The notes beneath the pieces are model-generated. The model was not told the origin of the DNA, ran no database searches, and saw only the letters and a list, made by a program, of their open reading frames with translations. DNA of 64,000 bases. Origin: Sphingopyxis sp. LC363 (GTDB taxonomy: Bacteria > Pseudomonadota > Alphaproteobacteria > Sphingomonadales > Sphingomonadaceae). This document shows, piece after piece, positions 25,172 through 30,346 of the stretch. Made by a program: the position numbers and the translations under genes. Location: the NCBI RefSeq assembly GCF_000756385.1, contig NZ_JNFC01000008.1, positions 20,244 to 84,243 on the forward strand, written 5' to 3'. The stretch's first letter is position 1. Every line of letters begins with the position of its first letter.

Positions 25172-25693
25172 ATGAAGAAAGTCATGCTTGCAGCGTCGGT
25201 TCTGGCGCTCGCGATGGCGGGGTCTCCCGCCTATGCACAAACTCTCGGCGGCGGGACCAACACGACCGGTGCGTCGGGCAACAACAGCGACAATGACACC
25301 GTCGTTGTGAACGACCTGATCGACCTGTTCGTCCAGGACAATGCGGCCGACACCTTCTCGGACGACGACCAGGACAATGATGGCAACGGCTCGTTCAACA
25401 GCAACACGCTCGTTGTCGCGACGCAGTCGCTCAGCGCGACCAACACCAACCAGAATATGGACGAACTCGTCGATCTGGACGGCGAGGACGACACCGATAC
25501 CGCTGTCGGCTACAACAGCGGCAACAACTCGGTGCGCGGCAATGCCTTCGCGGCTTATGCGGGCATCCTGAACGCTGCCTGGAACACGGGCATCAACTCG
25601 AACGCCCAGGCTGCGACCAACATCGCCGCGCAAGGCACCGTCAGCTTCGGCGACAGTGCTCCGGCCGGTGGTGGCGGCGGCGGCGGCGACTGA
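25172..25693 (+). CDS. Exported Asn/Asp-rich protein, candidate amyloid-like subunit
   Basis: A 173-residue protein with a clear signal peptide (cleavage likely at AYA/Q, residue 22). The mature part is low-complexity, rich in Asn, Asp, Thr, Ser and Gly, strongly acidic, without Cys, and ends in a seven-glycine run. Motifs such as NTGINSNAQAATNIAAQG recall the NxGxNSxxQ pattern of Fap-type amyloid subunits. AAGGAG lies just before the start. It is first in a plus-strand group with two GG-motif proteins and a C39 peptidase, convergent with a FapF-like barrel. A structural or secreted fibre role is inferred; no repeat array long enough to prove amyloid is present. Confidence 0.75.
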   Translation: MKKVMLAASVLALAMAGSPAYAQTLGGGTNTTGASGNNSDNDTVVVNDLIDLFVQDNAADTFSDDDQDNDGNGSFNSNTLVVATQSLSATNTNQNMDELVDLDGEDDTDTAVGYNSGNNSVRGNAFAAYAGILNAAWNTGINSNAQAATNIAAQGTVSFGDSAPAGGGGGGGD

Positions 25694-25771: not shown

Positions 25772-26179
25772 ATGAAACCCCCGATCGTCCCGGTTCTGCT
25801 GGTCATGGCAGGCTTGTCCGCGCCGGTATCGGCCCAATTGCCTCCGCCCGATGCGGCGCTGCCCGTCGTGGCGCACTCCGCCCCGGCTGAGGCCCTTGCG
25901 GCGTCGGCCATTCCGGCGCGGCCCGAACGCAAATCGCCGATGCTGAACGACAGCGAACTCGACACGCAACGCGGCGGCCAATCGCTCGTCATCACCAACC
26001 AGACGATGGAGTCGCTCGTCGCCGGCAATGTCCTGAACGGCGACTATACCGCAGGATCGGTCGCGCTCAGCGATTTCGCCCTGTCGAATTTCAACGGTGT
26101 CGGCAACCTGCTGATCAACACCGGCGCGCAGGTCAGCGCCCAGAGCGGCATGAACCTGACCATCAACCTCGGCGATTGA
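25772..26179 (+). CDS. Small Sec-exported protein with a double-glycine processing motif
   Basis: A 135-residue protein with a signal peptide (cleavage near VSA/Q, residue 21), a Pro/Ala-rich spacer, then LNDSELDTQRGG ending at Gly69. Leu at -7 and Glu at -8 relative to the glycine pair match the classical C39 leader pattern (ELxxxxGG); the -4 position is Gln rather than hydrophobic. The remaining 66 residues are hydrophobic/Asn-rich and include NLLINTGAQVSAQ. GAGGAG precedes the start. It lies directly before a periplasmic C39 peptidase gene, whose substrate it probably is. I do not recognise a named family. Confidence 0.75.
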   Translation: MKPPIVPVLLVMAGLSAPVSAQLPPPDAALPVVAHSAPAEALAASAIPARPERKSPMLNDSELDTQRGGQSLVITNQTMESLVAGNVLNGDYTAGSVALSDFALSNFNGVGNLLINTGAQVSAQSGMNLTINLGD

Positions 26180-26195
26180 ATTCGCCGTGCGGCCC

Positions 26196-26921
26196 ATGCG
26201 AGCCTTGATCGCGAGCATGCTGTGCGCCCTCGCCGCGGCACCCGCCGCCGCCGAGGTCCGGCTGACCGGACCCGAAACCGGCGGCACTTACCAGCTTCAG
26301 GTGATGACCTGGTGGGACATTCCCTTTCGTTCGGTCATCCGCCAGCGTTATGATTTCAGCTGCGGTTCGGCCGCGCTCGCAACGCTGCTCACCTATCATT
26401 ATGGCGCACCGACGTCCGAAGCGATGCCCTTCCGCGCGATGTGGGAAAAGGGCGACCGCGAAGCGATCCGCAAGGTCGGCTTCTCGATGCTCGACATGAA
26501 GACCTATCTCGCCTCGCGCGGCTATCGCGCCGAGGGCTTCCGCCTGACCGTCGACCAGCTGAAGCAGGTGAAGCGCCCGACGATCGTCCTGATGGACCTA
26601 AAGGGCTTCAAGCATTTCGTCGTGATCAAGGGCGTTCTCGGTGATCGTGTGCTCACCGGCGATTCGGTACTCGGCCTCAACGAATATTCGCTCGAGGATT
26701 TCGAGAAGCACTGGAACGGCATCGCCCTGGCGATCGTCGAAGGGGGCAAGAAACGCCCCGAATTCAACCTCGCCGGCGACTGGGGGCCCTGGTCGCAGGC
26801 TCCACTCGAAAAGGACGGATCGCTCCACGTCGCGGCCGGCGACCTTACCACCCACCTTCCCCCCCAATATCAGCTGACGCCGCAGATCCTGCTCGACGTG
26901 CGCGTCGGCACCGTGAAATGA
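26196..26921 (+). CDS. Periplasmic C39-family peptidase (FapD-like)
   Basis: A 241-residue protein with a signal peptide (to about residue 19) and one C39 bacteriocin-processing peptidase domain. Catalytic residues are visible: Gln50 (oxyanion hole) and Cys56 in QRYDFSCGSAALATLL, His140 in GFKHFVVIKG and Asp156 in LTGDSVLG. There is no ABC transporter attached, unlike C39 domains of peptide exporters; the arrangement is that of FapD in Pseudomonas functional-amyloid operons. It is flanked by two small exported proteins with QRGG motifs and overlaps the second as ATGA. ATG at 26196 is preferred over GTG at 26187. Confidence 0.9.
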   Translation: MRALIASMLCALAAAPAAAEVRLTGPETGGTYQLQVMTWWDIPFRSVIRQRYDFSCGSAALATLLTYHYGAPTSEAMPFRAMWEKGDREAIRKVGFSMLDMKTYLASRGYRAEGFRLTVDQLKQVKRPTIVLMDLKGFKHFVVIKGVLGDRVLTGDSVLGLNEYSLEDFEKHWNGIALAIVEGGKKRPEFNLAGDWGPWSQAPLEKDGSLHVAAGDLTTHLPPQYQLTPQILLDVRVGTVK

Positions 26922-27496
26922 GAAAAACCATGTCCCCACGCATCCTCATCCTCGCCTTCGCGCCCCTGCTCCTCGCGGCAAGCGAGCCCGAGGACGGCGA
27001 CCTGCTGGCCAGCGCGCAGACGGTACCGGACGAGGTGCTGGCCGCGCAGCGCGGCGGCTTTGCCTTTCAGGGCATGGTGATCGCCTTCGGCGCCGACATC
27101 CGCAGCTATGTGAACGACGAGCTCGCGCTGCGCACGATCGTCAGCTGGACGCCCGAGGGGCAGACGATCGAACGTTTCGTCTCGCCCGCGCTGACCGCGG
27201 TCGACGCGGCGCAGATACAGGGCGGCATATTGACCAGCGGCGGCATCTCGATGCGCGTCGGCGACGAGACGGTGTTCCTCGCGAACAACGGCCAGACGGC
27301 GCTGATCCAGAGCACCGACGCGATCCAGAATGTGCTGATCAACACCGCCAGCAACGTCTCGCTGAACCAGCAGGTCGACGCCGTGCTCGACATCAGCGGC
27401 TATGAAGGCTTCCGCGATGCGCTCGCGACGACACGGCTCAGCGACTCGATCGGCGCCGTAATGGGCGCCCAGACCGTCGGCGCACTCGGAAACTAG
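26918..27496 (+). CDS. Exported protein with a double-glycine processing motif (second C39 substrate candidate)
   Basis: A 192-residue protein with an N-terminal hydrophobic segment (ILILAFAPLLLAAS), then TVPDEVLAAQRGG ending at Gly47, the same QRGG with Leu at -7 as in the protein at 25772. The mature part contains QNVLINTASNVSLNQQV, aligning with NLLINTGAQVSAQSG of that protein, so the two are distant paralogues. Its ATG overlaps the stop of the C39 peptidase (ATGA), giving translational coupling between protease and substrate. The function is probably as a secreted or surface-assembled component; no known domain recognised. Confidence 0.78.
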   Translation: MRKTMSPRILILAFAPLLLAASEPEDGDLLASAQTVPDEVLAAQRGGFAFQGMVIAFGADIRSYVNDELALRTIVSWTPEGQTIERFVSPALTAVDAAQIQGGILTSGGISMRVGDETVFLANNGQTALIQSTDAIQNVLINTASNVSLNQQVDAVLDISGYEGFRDALATTRLSDSIGAVMGAQTVGALGN

Positions 27497-27596: not shown

Positions 27597-29045
27597 CTAT
27601 TTGCCGCCGAAGGGCATCCGCAGCGTGATCGACACGTCGGGCGCATCCTCGGTCACCCCGATTTCGAAACCGAGGTTGAGCACGTCGCGCTGGGTCAGCC
27701 GGTACGACATGCCGAAATTGAGCGAACCAACGTGGAGATAGTTTGATTTCTGGCGCGTATCGCCGATCTCGGTCTTCGTCGGGAAGATATAATTGTGGCG
27801 ATAGCCGAGCGAGAAGGAAAAGCGGGGGTTGAGCGCAAAGCCGAAGCCGATGTTGGCGGACACCGCATCGCCCGGGTCGACGCGCCCGATCAGCACATCG
27901 CCGACCATTTCGTTCACGTCGCGCGGGATGTGATAAAGGTAGGCCGCGCCGCCATAGATCACTGCGGGATCCGACGGCATCAGGAAGTTGAGGCCCGGCT
28001 GGACCGCCCAGAATCCCGACCCGGTGGCGAGCCCCGTCGCGACGCCGAATTCGTCATAGCCGATCTCGAACGGCCCCTTGCCCGTGTCCGATTTGACGCG
28101 CAGCGTTCCGACGAAAATCGGCTTTTGCCCGACCGGCCGGTTGAATTGATAGCGAAGCGAAAATTCGGCGTCGCCGAATCCGTCCTCGCGCAACGCGATT
28201 TGCCGGACGATGCCTTCGTCACGCTGCTGGACGACCTCGATCCGGTCGTTGCGATACAAATAGGGCAGCCGCACTTCGGCTTCGAGCCGGTCGGTGATCC
28301 CGTAACGCAGCGACGCCGTGCCGACGAGCGTGTCGCGATCGGCGTCGGTCGCCTCGATCAGGCCGATCTGGATGCCGGGGATCAGCTCGATCCCGCGGAA
28401 CACGAGGCGGTTGGTCGACGAGCGCGTATATTCGAACGAGGGTTCGAAAAAGAGTTCGCCGGCGCGCGTGAGCACGCCCTGCCCTTCGGGAACCGCCGCG
28501 ACGCGTTGCTGGGGTGGCTCTTCCGGCGGCGGCGCTTCGCCGACCGGCGCATCGGGCAGCGCGACCGCGTCGCTGCCGGGGCCGGGAAGCGCGGGTCCGG
28601 CGCCGACGCCCTGCCCCCCGACACCCCCCATGCCCGTGCCGCGGAAGATGTCGAGCGGCGCTTCGGCGAGCGCGAAGGAGGAAAGCCGGTCGACCTGCGC
28701 CTGCTGGGTCACGATCTGTTGCTGGAGCTTCGCGATCTGCTCTCCCTGCTCGGCGATCATGGCGCTCTGCCGGTCGATCAGCGCGCGCTGTTCGGCGATG
28801 ATCCGGCGCTGCGCGTCGATCTCGCTCTCGGAACTCGCGGCGGGATCGCCCGCGGCAGCGCCTGCCGGTGCCAACGCCGCGGCGCGCCAGGTCGGCGCGG
28901 TGTCGAGGAACGGCAGCGTCTCGCAAAGGCATTCGAGCGCCGGCGCCTCATGCGCGCGTGCCTGCGCGGGCATGAAGACGGCCGAAAAGCCGGCGGCCGC
29001 CACGCCCAAATGGCGCAGCGCGGGCGGGGCGGACACGATGCTCAT
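27597..29045 (-). CDS. FapF-like outer-membrane protein: coiled coil plus beta-barrel
   Basis: A 482-residue protein. A signal-like N-terminus (to ~residue 31, AQARA) is followed by a CLC pair and a coiled coil at residues 76-121 built of seven heptads with Ile or Val at every a position and mostly Gln at d (IDAQ, IAEQ, IDRQ, IAEQ, IAKL, IVTQ, VDRL). A Gly/Pro-rich linker leads to a ~300-residue C-terminal beta-barrel domain with alternating strands (FEPSFEYTRSS ... SLGYRHNYIFP ... FGMSYRLTQRDVLNLGFEIGV). This order matches FapF, the trimeric exporter of Fap amyloid subunits. ATG at 29045 overlaps the Crp-gene stop as ATGA. Confidence 0.85.
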   Translation of the reverse strand: MSIVSAPPALRHLGVAAAGFSAVFMPAQARAHEAPALECLCETLPFLDTAPTWRAAALAPAGAAAGDPAASSESEIDAQRRIIAEQRALIDRQSAMIAEQGEQIAKLQQQIVTQQAQVDRLSSFALAEAPLDIFRGTGMGGVGGQGVGAGPALPGPGSDAVALPDAPVGEAPPPEEPPQQRVAAVPEGQGVLTRAGELFFEPSFEYTRSSTNRLVFRGIELIPGIQIGLIEATDADRDTLVGTASLRYGITDRLEAEVRLPYLYRNDRIEVVQQRDEGIVRQIALREDGFGDAEFSLRYQFNRPVGQKPIFVGTLRVKSDTGKGPFEIGYDEFGVATGLATGSGFWAVQPGLNFLMPSDPAVIYGGAAYLYHIPRDVNEMVGDVLIGRVDPGDAVSANIGFGFALNPRFSFSLGYRHNYIFPTKTEIGDTRQKSNYLHVGSLNFGMSYRLTQRDVLNLGFEIGVTEDAPDVSITLRMPFGGK

Positions 29046-29722
29046 GCTCCCAACTCCTGCCCGGCGAAGGGTGGCCGCATCCGCATTCCTCCCATCCTGT
29101 CGATCGCCATCCCCGCCTCTTCGCCGGCAATGGCGCGCAGTCCGCCCGGATCGAGCAGCCGGCACGATTGCGGGCCGTCGAGCTCGATCAGGCCCTGGCG
29201 AACGAAGCCCGATATGGTGCGGCTGACCGTGTGGATCGTCAGCCCCAGATGATCGGCGATGTCGCCGCGCGTCATCGGCAGGGGAACGCTGCCGATCGCC
29301 GACAACCGCTTCGCAGCGATCAACAGGAACGCCGCGACGCGTTCGTTCGCGTTGCGGCGGCCGAGCAGGAATATACATTGGTTGGCGCTGTCGAGCGCGC
29401 GTTCGAGGGCCCGGCTCTGCCGCGGCGCGTCGGGCCCGCCGTTCGATGCGGGACGGCGCGCCAGGACGGCGTTCGTCACAGCCTCGGCCGCGGCGTCGCG
29501 CGCGCCATATTCGACGCCGAACACGTCGCCCTGATAGAAAAAGCCGGTCAGCTGGCGATGACCGTCGACGTGAAAATGACAGGTCCGGACGGTGCCGGAG
29601 ATGACTTCGAACCAGCAATCGCCGGGATCGCCCTGCGAAAATATGATTTCGCCCTTACGAAATTTCAGGATGGCATCCTGCGGAATCGCCCCGCGATGAA
29701 CTTCTGCCGACAGACCTTGCAC
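29042..29722 (-). CDS. Crp/Fnr-family transcriptional regulator
   Basis: A 226-residue regulator with a cyclic-nucleotide-type sensor fold (KGEIIFSQGDPGDCWFEVIS, then FFYQGDVFGVEYG) and a C-terminal winged helix with MTRGDIADHLGLTIHTVSRTI, as in FixK-like proteins. No cysteine cluster for an iron-sulfur centre is present, so it is not an oxygen-sensing Fnr. GTG at 29722 has GGAG about eight bases upstream. It is coupled by ATGA to the FapF-like gene, so it probably regulates the secretion locus, possibly from the 357-bp AT-rich region upstream. Confidence 0.88.
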   Translation of the reverse strand: MQGLSAEVHRGAIPQDAILKFRKGEIIFSQGDPGDCWFEVISGTVRTCHFHVDGHRQLTGFFYQGDVFGVEYGARDAAAEAVTNAVLARRPASNGGPDAPRQSRALERALDSANQCIFLLGRRNANERVAAFLLIAAKRLSAIGSVPLPMTRGDIADHLGLTIHTVSRTISGFVRQGLIELDGPQSCRLLDPGGLRAIAGEEAGMAIDRMGGMRMRPPFAGQELGA

Positions 29723-30079
29723 GCCACGTCTCCAATCTGGAATTGGTATTTGCGGCGACCCCGTTTGCGAGTCTCATCTGCCTTTGCGGACGTCGAATCC
29801 ATCCGGGGAAAGACCTAGGAATTCGTGTGTAAGGATGGCTTAGATGAATCACTTACGTATAATTCCTTAGCGTTTTCGGGGAATATACATTTGGATTCCA
29901 GCACCATAGCTGTATCGGCACAACGAGTGCCGCCATATACTTAATTAGCTTGCGTTAATTGCTAAACAGCTCGCAAAGCGATATGCTCCTCACCAGAGCA
30001 GGTGGGTGGCGGCTTTGCCGCGCAAAAGATGCTCGTCGGTCGCAAAGTGTCCACGCCTTGGGTGTCAGGGGATTGCACC
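29723..30079. promoter_or_regulatory. AT-rich divergent region between Crp- and LuxR-type regulator genes
   Basis: About 357 bp with no supportable gene. The stretch 29820-29990 is visibly richer in A/T than the rest of the window (for example TTACGTATAATTCC and ATATACTTAATTAGC). A short inverted pair AGGAATT ... AATTCCT occurs at ~29817-29867. It must hold the promoters of both regulator genes; no consensus Crp/Fnr site could be placed with confidence. Confidence 0.5.
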
Positions 30080-30346
30080 GTGCATCGAAATGCTTTGAAC
30101 GTCGAACCGCATTTGACCTTTCGTGAGCATCAAATACTGGAATTGGTAGCTGTCGGCTGCTCGGCCAAGCAGATCGCGCTCGAGATCAATATCGCGCCGC
30201 GTACCGTGGAACGGCATATCGAAAATGTGCGGCTGAAACTCAATGCCCGCAACCGCGCGCACCTGATCACGCAGGCGATGCACCTCGGCCTGCTGGTCAT
30301 CGAAACCCCCGCGCCCGACGAGCCGACGCTCTTCGAACTCAAATGA
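30080..30346 (+). CDS. Small LuxR-type helix-turn-helix regulator
   Basis: An 88-residue protein consisting almost only of a LuxR C-terminal DNA-binding domain: LTFREHQILELVAVGCSAKQIAL, then IAPRTVERHIENVRLKLNARNRAHL. There is no receiver or autoinducer domain. GTG at 30080 is preferred because AGGGGA lies seven bases upstream; ATG at 30029 or GTG at 30002 would add 17 or 26 residues with no clear ribosome-binding site. Lying beside the secretion locus it may act with the Crp/Fnr protein, but that is inference. Confidence 0.8.
   Translation: MHRNALNVEPHLTFREHQILELVAVGCSAKQIALEINIAPRTVERHIENVRLKLNARNRAHLITQAMHLGLLVIETPAPDEPTLFELK

Follow-up and report, generated by a model that had tools for sequence, protein, structure and literature searches.

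A FapD-like C39 peptidase in Sphingopyxis is flanked by two predicted exported proteins with candidate double-glycine leaders

The window – the whole 64,000-nucleotide stretch of Sphingopyxis sp. LC363 DNA analyzed here – encodes a stand-alone C39 peptidase flanked on both sides by genes for predicted exported proteins, with genes for a FapF-like channel and a regulator nearby on the opposite strand. The features are as follows:

25172..25693, + strand: gene 0, 173 aa, rich in Asn and Asp, predicted exported, signal-like N-terminus
25772..26179, + strand: gene 1, 135 aa, predicted exported; signal peptide, spacer, C39-type leader, 66-residue remainder
25955..25978, + strand: end of the gene 1 leader, ELDTQRGG (residues 62-69); cleavage predicted after Gly69
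26187..26921, + strand: FapD-like C39 peptidase, stand-alone, signal-peptide-like N-terminus; GTG start at 26187, alternative ATG at 26196
26361..26363, + strand: codon of the peptidase catalytic Cys59 (Cys56 counted from the ATG)
26918..27496, + strand: gene 2, 192 aa, FapE-like, predicted exported; C39-type leader, 145-residue remainder
27035..27058, + strand: end of the gene 2 leader, VLAAQRGG (residues 40-47); cleavage predicted after Gly47
27597..29045, - strand: FapF-like outer-membrane channel, 482 aa, N-terminal coiled-coil-like stretch
28635..28658, - strand: FapF linker site PLDIFRGT/G (slash, here and below, at the predicted bond), residues 130-137, possible third cleavage site
29042..29722, - strand: Crp/FixK-type regulator (PF13545 and PF00027; FixK model 4.5e-40, below cut-off)
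30002-30346, + strand: small LuxR-type HTH protein, beyond the Crp/FixK-type regulator

The stop of the Crp/FixK-type regulator gene overlaps the start of the FapF-like gene, and the two probably form one transcript. Together with the LuxR-type HTH protein, this regulator (29042-30346) represents a candidate source of control.

The peptidase consists of a C39 domain (Pfam PF03412 at 3.9e-16) with the catalytic Cys, His, and Asp and the oxyanion Gln, and has no ABC domain. It matches the NCBIfam model C39_FapD (NF058616) at 9.4e-47 and 159 bits, short of the equivalog cut-off of 330, and the FapF-like channel matches the NCBIfam FapF model over residues 166-476 at 4.1e-35 and 121 bits (cut-off 700). 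Because both matches fall under the curated cut-offs, we describe the system as Fap-like rather than classify it as Fap. Cys59, Gln53, His143, and Asp159 are invariant in an alignment of 50 selected peptidase rows (A1), and the catalytic triad and oxyanion Gln are retained in 104 of the 108 peptidases of a wider alignment. The preliminary description had numbered the catalytic residue Cys56, which is right when counting from the ATG at 26196; with the GTG at 26187 as start codon, the number is Cys59. The protein has a C39 fold, with top matches that include a protease-leader complex (6mpz, which we take to be LahT) and substrate-bound PCAT1 (8vp5). Its N-terminus is signal-like according to our own simple rule – signal peptides were called throughout by hydrophobicity and the -3/-1 residues rather than by SignalP. 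Among 29 further loci of this type, the nearest named relative is Sphingopyxis italica, with a peptidase 97% identical. Two loci elsewhere in our sample carry doublings that suggest a duplicated processing module: L091 has the gene 1-peptidase-gene 2 unit twice, and L080 has two peptidases, each with its own neighbors.

Both genes that flank the peptidase encode a signal-like N-terminus followed by QRGG, as the preliminary description had reported. Gene 1 reads ...SPMLNDSELDTQRGG/QSLVITNQ, with Glu62 at -8, Leu63 at -7, and Gly68-Gly69 at the end; gene 2 reads ...TVPDEVLAAQRGG/FAFQGM, with Val at -8, Leu41 at -7, and Gly46-Gly47 at the end. Across the window and the 29 further loci, GG with Leu at -7 occurs in 29 of 30 gene 1 proteins, the exception (L016) having an SSG end with Leu at -7 and -12, and RGG with Leu or Met at -7 occurs in 30 of 30 gene 2 proteins (L013 included). 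The leader end falls anywhere from residue 57 to 77 in gene 1 and from 47 to 52 in gene 2. What follows hardly varies in length: all 29 parsed gene 1 proteins have 66 aa beyond the leader, and all 29 parsed gene 2 proteins have 145 or 146 aa. A fixed distance from motif to C-terminus, combined with a loose distance from signal to motif, is the pattern expected from a removable leader. A predicted model of gene 2, of low confidence (pLDDT 62.5), places a helix at residues 38-44 and strands from residue 48, that is, a boundary at the predicted bond. Searching the PDB with this same low-confidence model returned no convincing match (best E 5.6e-3, probability 0.21). One small upstream exported protein, that of L071, carries LSDSDLDRVTAGD after its signal – a different leader-like ending that lacks RGG.

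According to excerpts of PMC10885120, the C39 proteases of peptide exporters require hydrophobic residues at -4, -7, and -12 and cleave after GG, GA, or GS. Both window leaders have the required ending at -2/-1 and hydrophobic residues at -7/-12 (L/L in gene 1, L/V in gene 2), and both depart from the rule at -4, where each has Gln. In the wider sample, we scored hydrophobic residues (LIVMF at -12) in 43 upstream rows, aligned on the Gly69 column, and at the scored site of 36 downstream representatives. Position -12, which played no part in site choice, was hydrophobic in 98% of upstream and 92% of downstream proteins. The adjacent positions gave 0% and 0% at -11 and 44% and 8% at -13. Position -7 was hydrophobic in 100% of both sets, although downstream it helped to choose the site, and -4 was hydrophobic in 60% and 47%. 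The preliminary description had recognized a C39 leader pattern in the flanking genes without using -12, and the published -12 rule now bears that recognition out. These matches to the published rule suggest that the window leaders work like a double-glycine (C39) leader; we do not claim strict membership.

The breadth of the motif was assessed by searching the FapD model in 296 Sphingomonadales and 398 Pseudomonadota genomes (overlapping sets), which gave matches in 66 of the 296 at E <= 1e-3, some of them ABC-type C39 frames, and in 40 of the 398 at E <= 1e-12. We used 40 of the 42 Sphingomonadales places with E <= 1e-19 (G000 is the window and G167 was omitted), omitted G264 (6.5e-17, 235-residue frame) and weaker places, and omitted 5 of the 51 Pseudomonadota places. 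Together, 80 stretches, the 29 loci, and the window yielded 112 peptidase sites in 110 loci, of which 111 were parsed (the L070 peptidase was not); with L082, L102, and L111 omitted, 108 peptidases formed 46 clusters at 70% identity. For L035 and L061 our frame choice settled on an incorrect downstream frame, and for L076 on a truncated FapE.

We defined a strict motif, [DE][LM]xxxRG[GKR] within 110 residues of the signal, and found it downstream in 19 of 42 cluster representatives (53 of 98 proteins overall) and upstream in 7 of 39 (36 of 99 overall). Shuffles of the same stretches contained it 0.1 times downstream and 0.0 times upstream on average, with a maximum of 1 each, and other signal-bearing frames contained it in 1 of 265 cases (one locus per cluster, six frames). 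Two looser patterns were tried and rejected: [LMIVF]x4GG (upstream 14 of 39 against a shuffle mean of 9.1 and maximum of 18; downstream 28 of 42 against 13.1) and [DENQ][LMIVF]x4G[GKRSAQ] (upstream 13 of 39 against 8.4; downstream 25 of 42 against 9.6). Since these barely separate upstream genes from shuffles, we based the analysis on the strict motif together with the test at -12. With sites selected by score, the best-scoring site is [RHTE]G[GKR] in 88 of 98 downstream genes, with Gly (58), Lys (17), or Arg (13) at -1; the exceptions include Fil-type loci, in which the channel gene is itself the downstream gene.

Non-conservation of QRGG was the sequence result that the preliminary description had named as counting against it. 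The homologue alignments did not bring this result: R-G proved to be the fixed core. RGG is invariant in alignment A2 partly by selection, because its rows (41 of 44 candidates) were picked for Gly at -1; alignment A3 (43 of 55 rows, L071 being among the 12 omitted) was picked by place and length. The -1 residue itself varies – G, K, R, S, Q, or M across proteins – with Gly in the clade of the window and Lys or Arg in the classical Fap clade. On a FapD tree of 105 rows, which has several long branches and on which the L035 and L061 labels were assigned by hand, the split between G and K/R follows approximately one deep branch, with 2 changes. Because the split essentially tracks this single branch, it provides no independent evidence of coevolution, and we dropped the apparent links between -1 and peptidase positions 61 (Ser/Ala) and 149 (Gly/Lys/Arg); the link to position 61 is further weakened by 6mpz, a double-glycine protease with Ala there.

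The two flanking proteins appear to have only the leader in common. Profiles of genes 1 and 2 align over 23 columns, all of them leader, with a probability of 90.9 (17.7 for the mature parts), and gene 2 aligns with the Lys/Arg-type FapE set over 44 columns around the leader with a probability of 92.7 (0.4 for the mature parts); these hhalign probabilities on single pairs are not database-calibrated and serve as relative statements. A common leader on distinct bodies is the arrangement of C39 precursor peptides. Gene 2 occupies the fapE position, directly after the peptidase gene, and by profile and position gene 2 is FapE-like and gene 1 a separate small protein; the pair does not represent two examples of one protein. 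The 66-residue mature part of gene 1 contains no Lys and no Arg, and a search for homology of this part to FapB and FapC found none. It weakly resembles the gene 0 family (probability 51).

An Asn-rich gene with a signal-like start stands at the gene 0 place in 38 of 38 clade loci. Six members of the family that were printed share a C-terminal block, approximately AFAAFAGILNxAWNTGxNSNxQAATNI, which in two of them is preceded by long repeats. Gene 0 itself gave no Pfam match, we saw no GG leader in it, and against FapB (9 rows) and FapC (5 rows) hhalign, a weak method for repeats, returned probabilities of 0.7 and 1.4. Gene 0 is possibly the main fibre subunit.

We then considered how specific the leaders are to their setting. 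In the genome of the window, the DNA pattern for [DE][LF]xxx[RS]GG occurs 69 times and the reversed pattern 48 times. Gene 1 is among the 69 and gene 2 lies outside the pattern, having Val at -8; when we read the remaining 68 sites, two had a weak in-frame signal-like start, neither of them convincing. A gene 1 profile, with 14 candidates scored per genome, matched 25 of the 296 order genomes, with the best match adjoining a FapD-like gene in 25 of 25, and matched none of the 230 order genomes that lack a FapD-model match. Rows of the profile came from 17 of the 25 positive genomes, which makes presence there partly a product of how it was built; absence elsewhere is the informative part. A protein search with the gene 2 profile gave 317 matches, and 108 of the best 120 were at least 155 residues long; among these 108, [LMI]xxxRGG[FYMW] lies within the first 120 residues in 105, KSGGF in one, and neither in two. 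Where a name is shown for a listed match, it is 'hypothetical protein'.

A related leader is present in Pseudomonas. Where the peptidase scores above the FapD cut-off, the gene following fapD encodes a signal peptide followed by ..IELKDAEMAELRGRYVMPGR.. or ..IELKDQELAQLRGKYVMPGR.., giving FapE a leader with hydrophobic residues at -12, -7, and -4 and with Arg or Lys at -1, ending in RG[RK]Y near residue 40. Because known C39 enzymes cut after small residues, we predict the FapE bond as either RG[RK]/Y or RG/[RK]Y, and the classical Fap clade may be cut one residue earlier, before the Lys or Arg. Passages of PMC5557850 report that the N-terminus is missing from FapE alone, with mass-spectrometric peptides absent over the first ~70 residues. 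The predicted site near residue 40 falls inside this region, not at its edge. This leader is a candidate FapD site that could account for the missing FapE N-terminus. The same study points to GG and GA motifs in FapE, so the sites favored there may differ from RG[RK], and its mass spectrometry reports no processing of FapA. Leader-like blocks also occur in the first fap gene, at the FapA position, of L077, L078, L079, and L086 (ELSDSDFAGVTSG, PLGDADFARVSGG, ELSDEDFARLDAA).

In the excerpts that bear on it, the target of FapD was called unclear in 2017 and yet to be determined in 2018, and portions of a 2025 review name the N-terminus of FapE and the periplasmic region of FapF as the parts that FapD is 'thought to' process (PMC12822426). 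The preliminary description had offered the flanking proteins as a direct prediction of the natural substrate of FapD-like enzymes. That prediction has gained a specific leader site; its general form, that FapD cuts FapE and FapF, was already in print as a hypothesis in parts of PMC5557850 and PMC12822426. To this hypothesis the window contributes a defined leader block that is conserved across families and occurs here in a GG form. In the open-licence literature, searched without supplements, we found neither a description of the leader site nor a published cleavage at it by a FapD-family enzyme.

A FapF-like frame is present in 103 of the 110 loci, and the linker of the window protein contains a related sequence, FALAEAPLDIFRGT/GMGG. 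FapF is missing from 5 of the 38 clade loci, and in 30 of the 33 clade FapF proteins an RG lies at the aligned place behind the coiled coil. All 30 are followed by Gly at +1; 28 carry Leu at -7, and 26 carry Thr or Ala at -1. Because -12 is hydrophobic in 20 of the 30 (18 Leu, 2 Val), we regard the linker as a weaker third site. No such conserved linker site was seen in the Pseudomonas FapF proteins. Sections of the 2017 study hint at linker processing in FapF (PMC5557850), and the clade site agrees with that hint as a possible candidate.

Taken together, these observations lead us to propose, with a probability of about 0.8, that genes 1 and 2 share a double-glycine leader that is removed by the FapD-like peptidase in the periplasm after likely Sec export. 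Judging from the signal-peptide-like N-termini, Sec would export both enzyme and substrates, and signal peptidase would make the first cut. The C39 enzyme would then grip the hydrophobic residues at -12 and -7, with -4 adding to the grip in about half of the relatives, and a predicted cut after R-G-G would free the 66-residue gene 1 product and the 145-residue FapE-like gene 2 product; the leader rule, the intact catalytic residues, and the gene order all point to this step. Leader removal might in turn license or time the transit of the two products through the FapF-like channel, on their way to an amyloid-like fibre with gene 0 as a possible main subunit, and cleavage of the FapF linker may affect the gate. 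A meeting of enzyme and substrates in the periplasm, already suggested in the preliminary description, gains support from Pseudomonas, where FapD carrying an OmpA signal restores secretion and FapD works from the periplasm with a need for its active-site Cys (as described in portions of PMC5557850).

Among the alternatives, an unlikely one that survives best is that the C39-like protein binds the leader without cutting it and chaperones or delivers proteins to the FapF-like channel, in the manner of the inactive C39-like domains of some type I exporters. C39-like chaperone domains do exist (excerpts of PMC5557850), 3zua ('A C39-like domain') is among the fold matches of the peptidase, and the variation at -1 is odd for a strict protease and would not be for a binding site. 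A binder would nevertheless leave the invariance of the catalytic Cys, His, Asp, and Gln in the 50 selected rows to be accounted for, along with the abolished FapC secretion of the Pseudomonas FapD C38A mutant and the missing N-terminal peptides of FapE (the same excerpts). Less probable still, and improbable in our view, is that the conserved block is a signal retained in the mature proteins, for docking to the FapF coiled coil or for fibre assembly, with its likeness to a C39 leader arising by convergence. Its direct position before the mature domain in both families and the related block in the FapF linker fit such a role, but the motif follows the C39 rule at -12 and adjoins a C39 enzyme, and no gene 1 turned up in the 230 order genomes that lack a FapD-model match. 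We give very little credence to the idea that each long N-terminus does not combine a Sec signal with a leader but serves as a leader for the one further C39 match of this genome (G000:C20:18707-19060, L002), an 883-residue open frame that is probably a cytoplasmic ABC exporter, since that frame lies on a different contig, the N-termini look Sec-like, and the adjacent peptidase has a signal-like N-terminus and a FapF-like channel next door.

Beyond periplasmic removal of the two leaders by the FapD-like peptidase, we put forward a wider and more tentative proposal, to which we give slightly less than even odds: one periplasmic leader code may extend across the FapD and FilB families of Pseudomonadota. 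A Sec-exported C39 enzyme would strip L-12/L-7/RG[G,K,R] leaders from two unrelated fibre-linked proteins and cut the FapF linker at LxxxRG[A,T], so that one protease would mature the cargo and set the gate; Pseudomonas FapE (RG[RK]/Y or RG/[RK]Y) would be its best-known hidden case. FapD activity is required for amyloid secretion in Pseudomonas, and the near-canonical leader in the window makes the corresponding leader of FapE recognizable. A leader code familiar from the ABC exporters of bacteriocins would thereby be placed in the periplasm, where it may time a step of amyloid export, and exact predicted bonds can be named for the FapD-family enzymes of biofilm-amyloid export.

The system appears to work like a double-glycine leader system relocated to the periplasm, and it belongs beside Fap and the Neisseria nap island. 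It shares with Pseudomonas Fap the stand-alone C39 peptidase, a downstream gene at the FapE position, a FapF-like channel, and the leader block in FapE, and differs in that its proteins score under the equivalog cut-offs for FapD and FapF, its leaders have Gly at -1 where Fap has Lys or Arg, an additional leader-bearing gene 1 precedes fapD, and gene 0 has no detected homology to FapB or FapC. The Fil putative pilus system (FilB, FilC) is alike in its matches to the C39 and channel models, on which we ourselves called loci Fil. In 5 of 6 Fil-like loci (L105-L109 among them), the upstream exported protein carries a [ML][DN]DxxLxxxTGQ block after its signal; unlike the window, these have a TGQ end and lack a FapE-like downstream gene. 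PCAT/AMS exporters and LahT-type C39 leaders share the C39 fold, the catalytic residues, the hydrophobic -7/-12, and the GG end, but there the protease is joined to an ABC exporter and works at the cytoplasmic face, whereas the enzyme and leader proteins of the window have Sec-like signals. In the Neisseria nap island, NapP is a C39 protein, NapF is FapF-like, the products have GG, and the authors propose periplasmic cleavage, according to sections of PMC11798529. The Naps are set apart by their description there as small cationic peptides that promote autolysis, in contrast to a mature gene 1 protein devoid of Lys and Arg.
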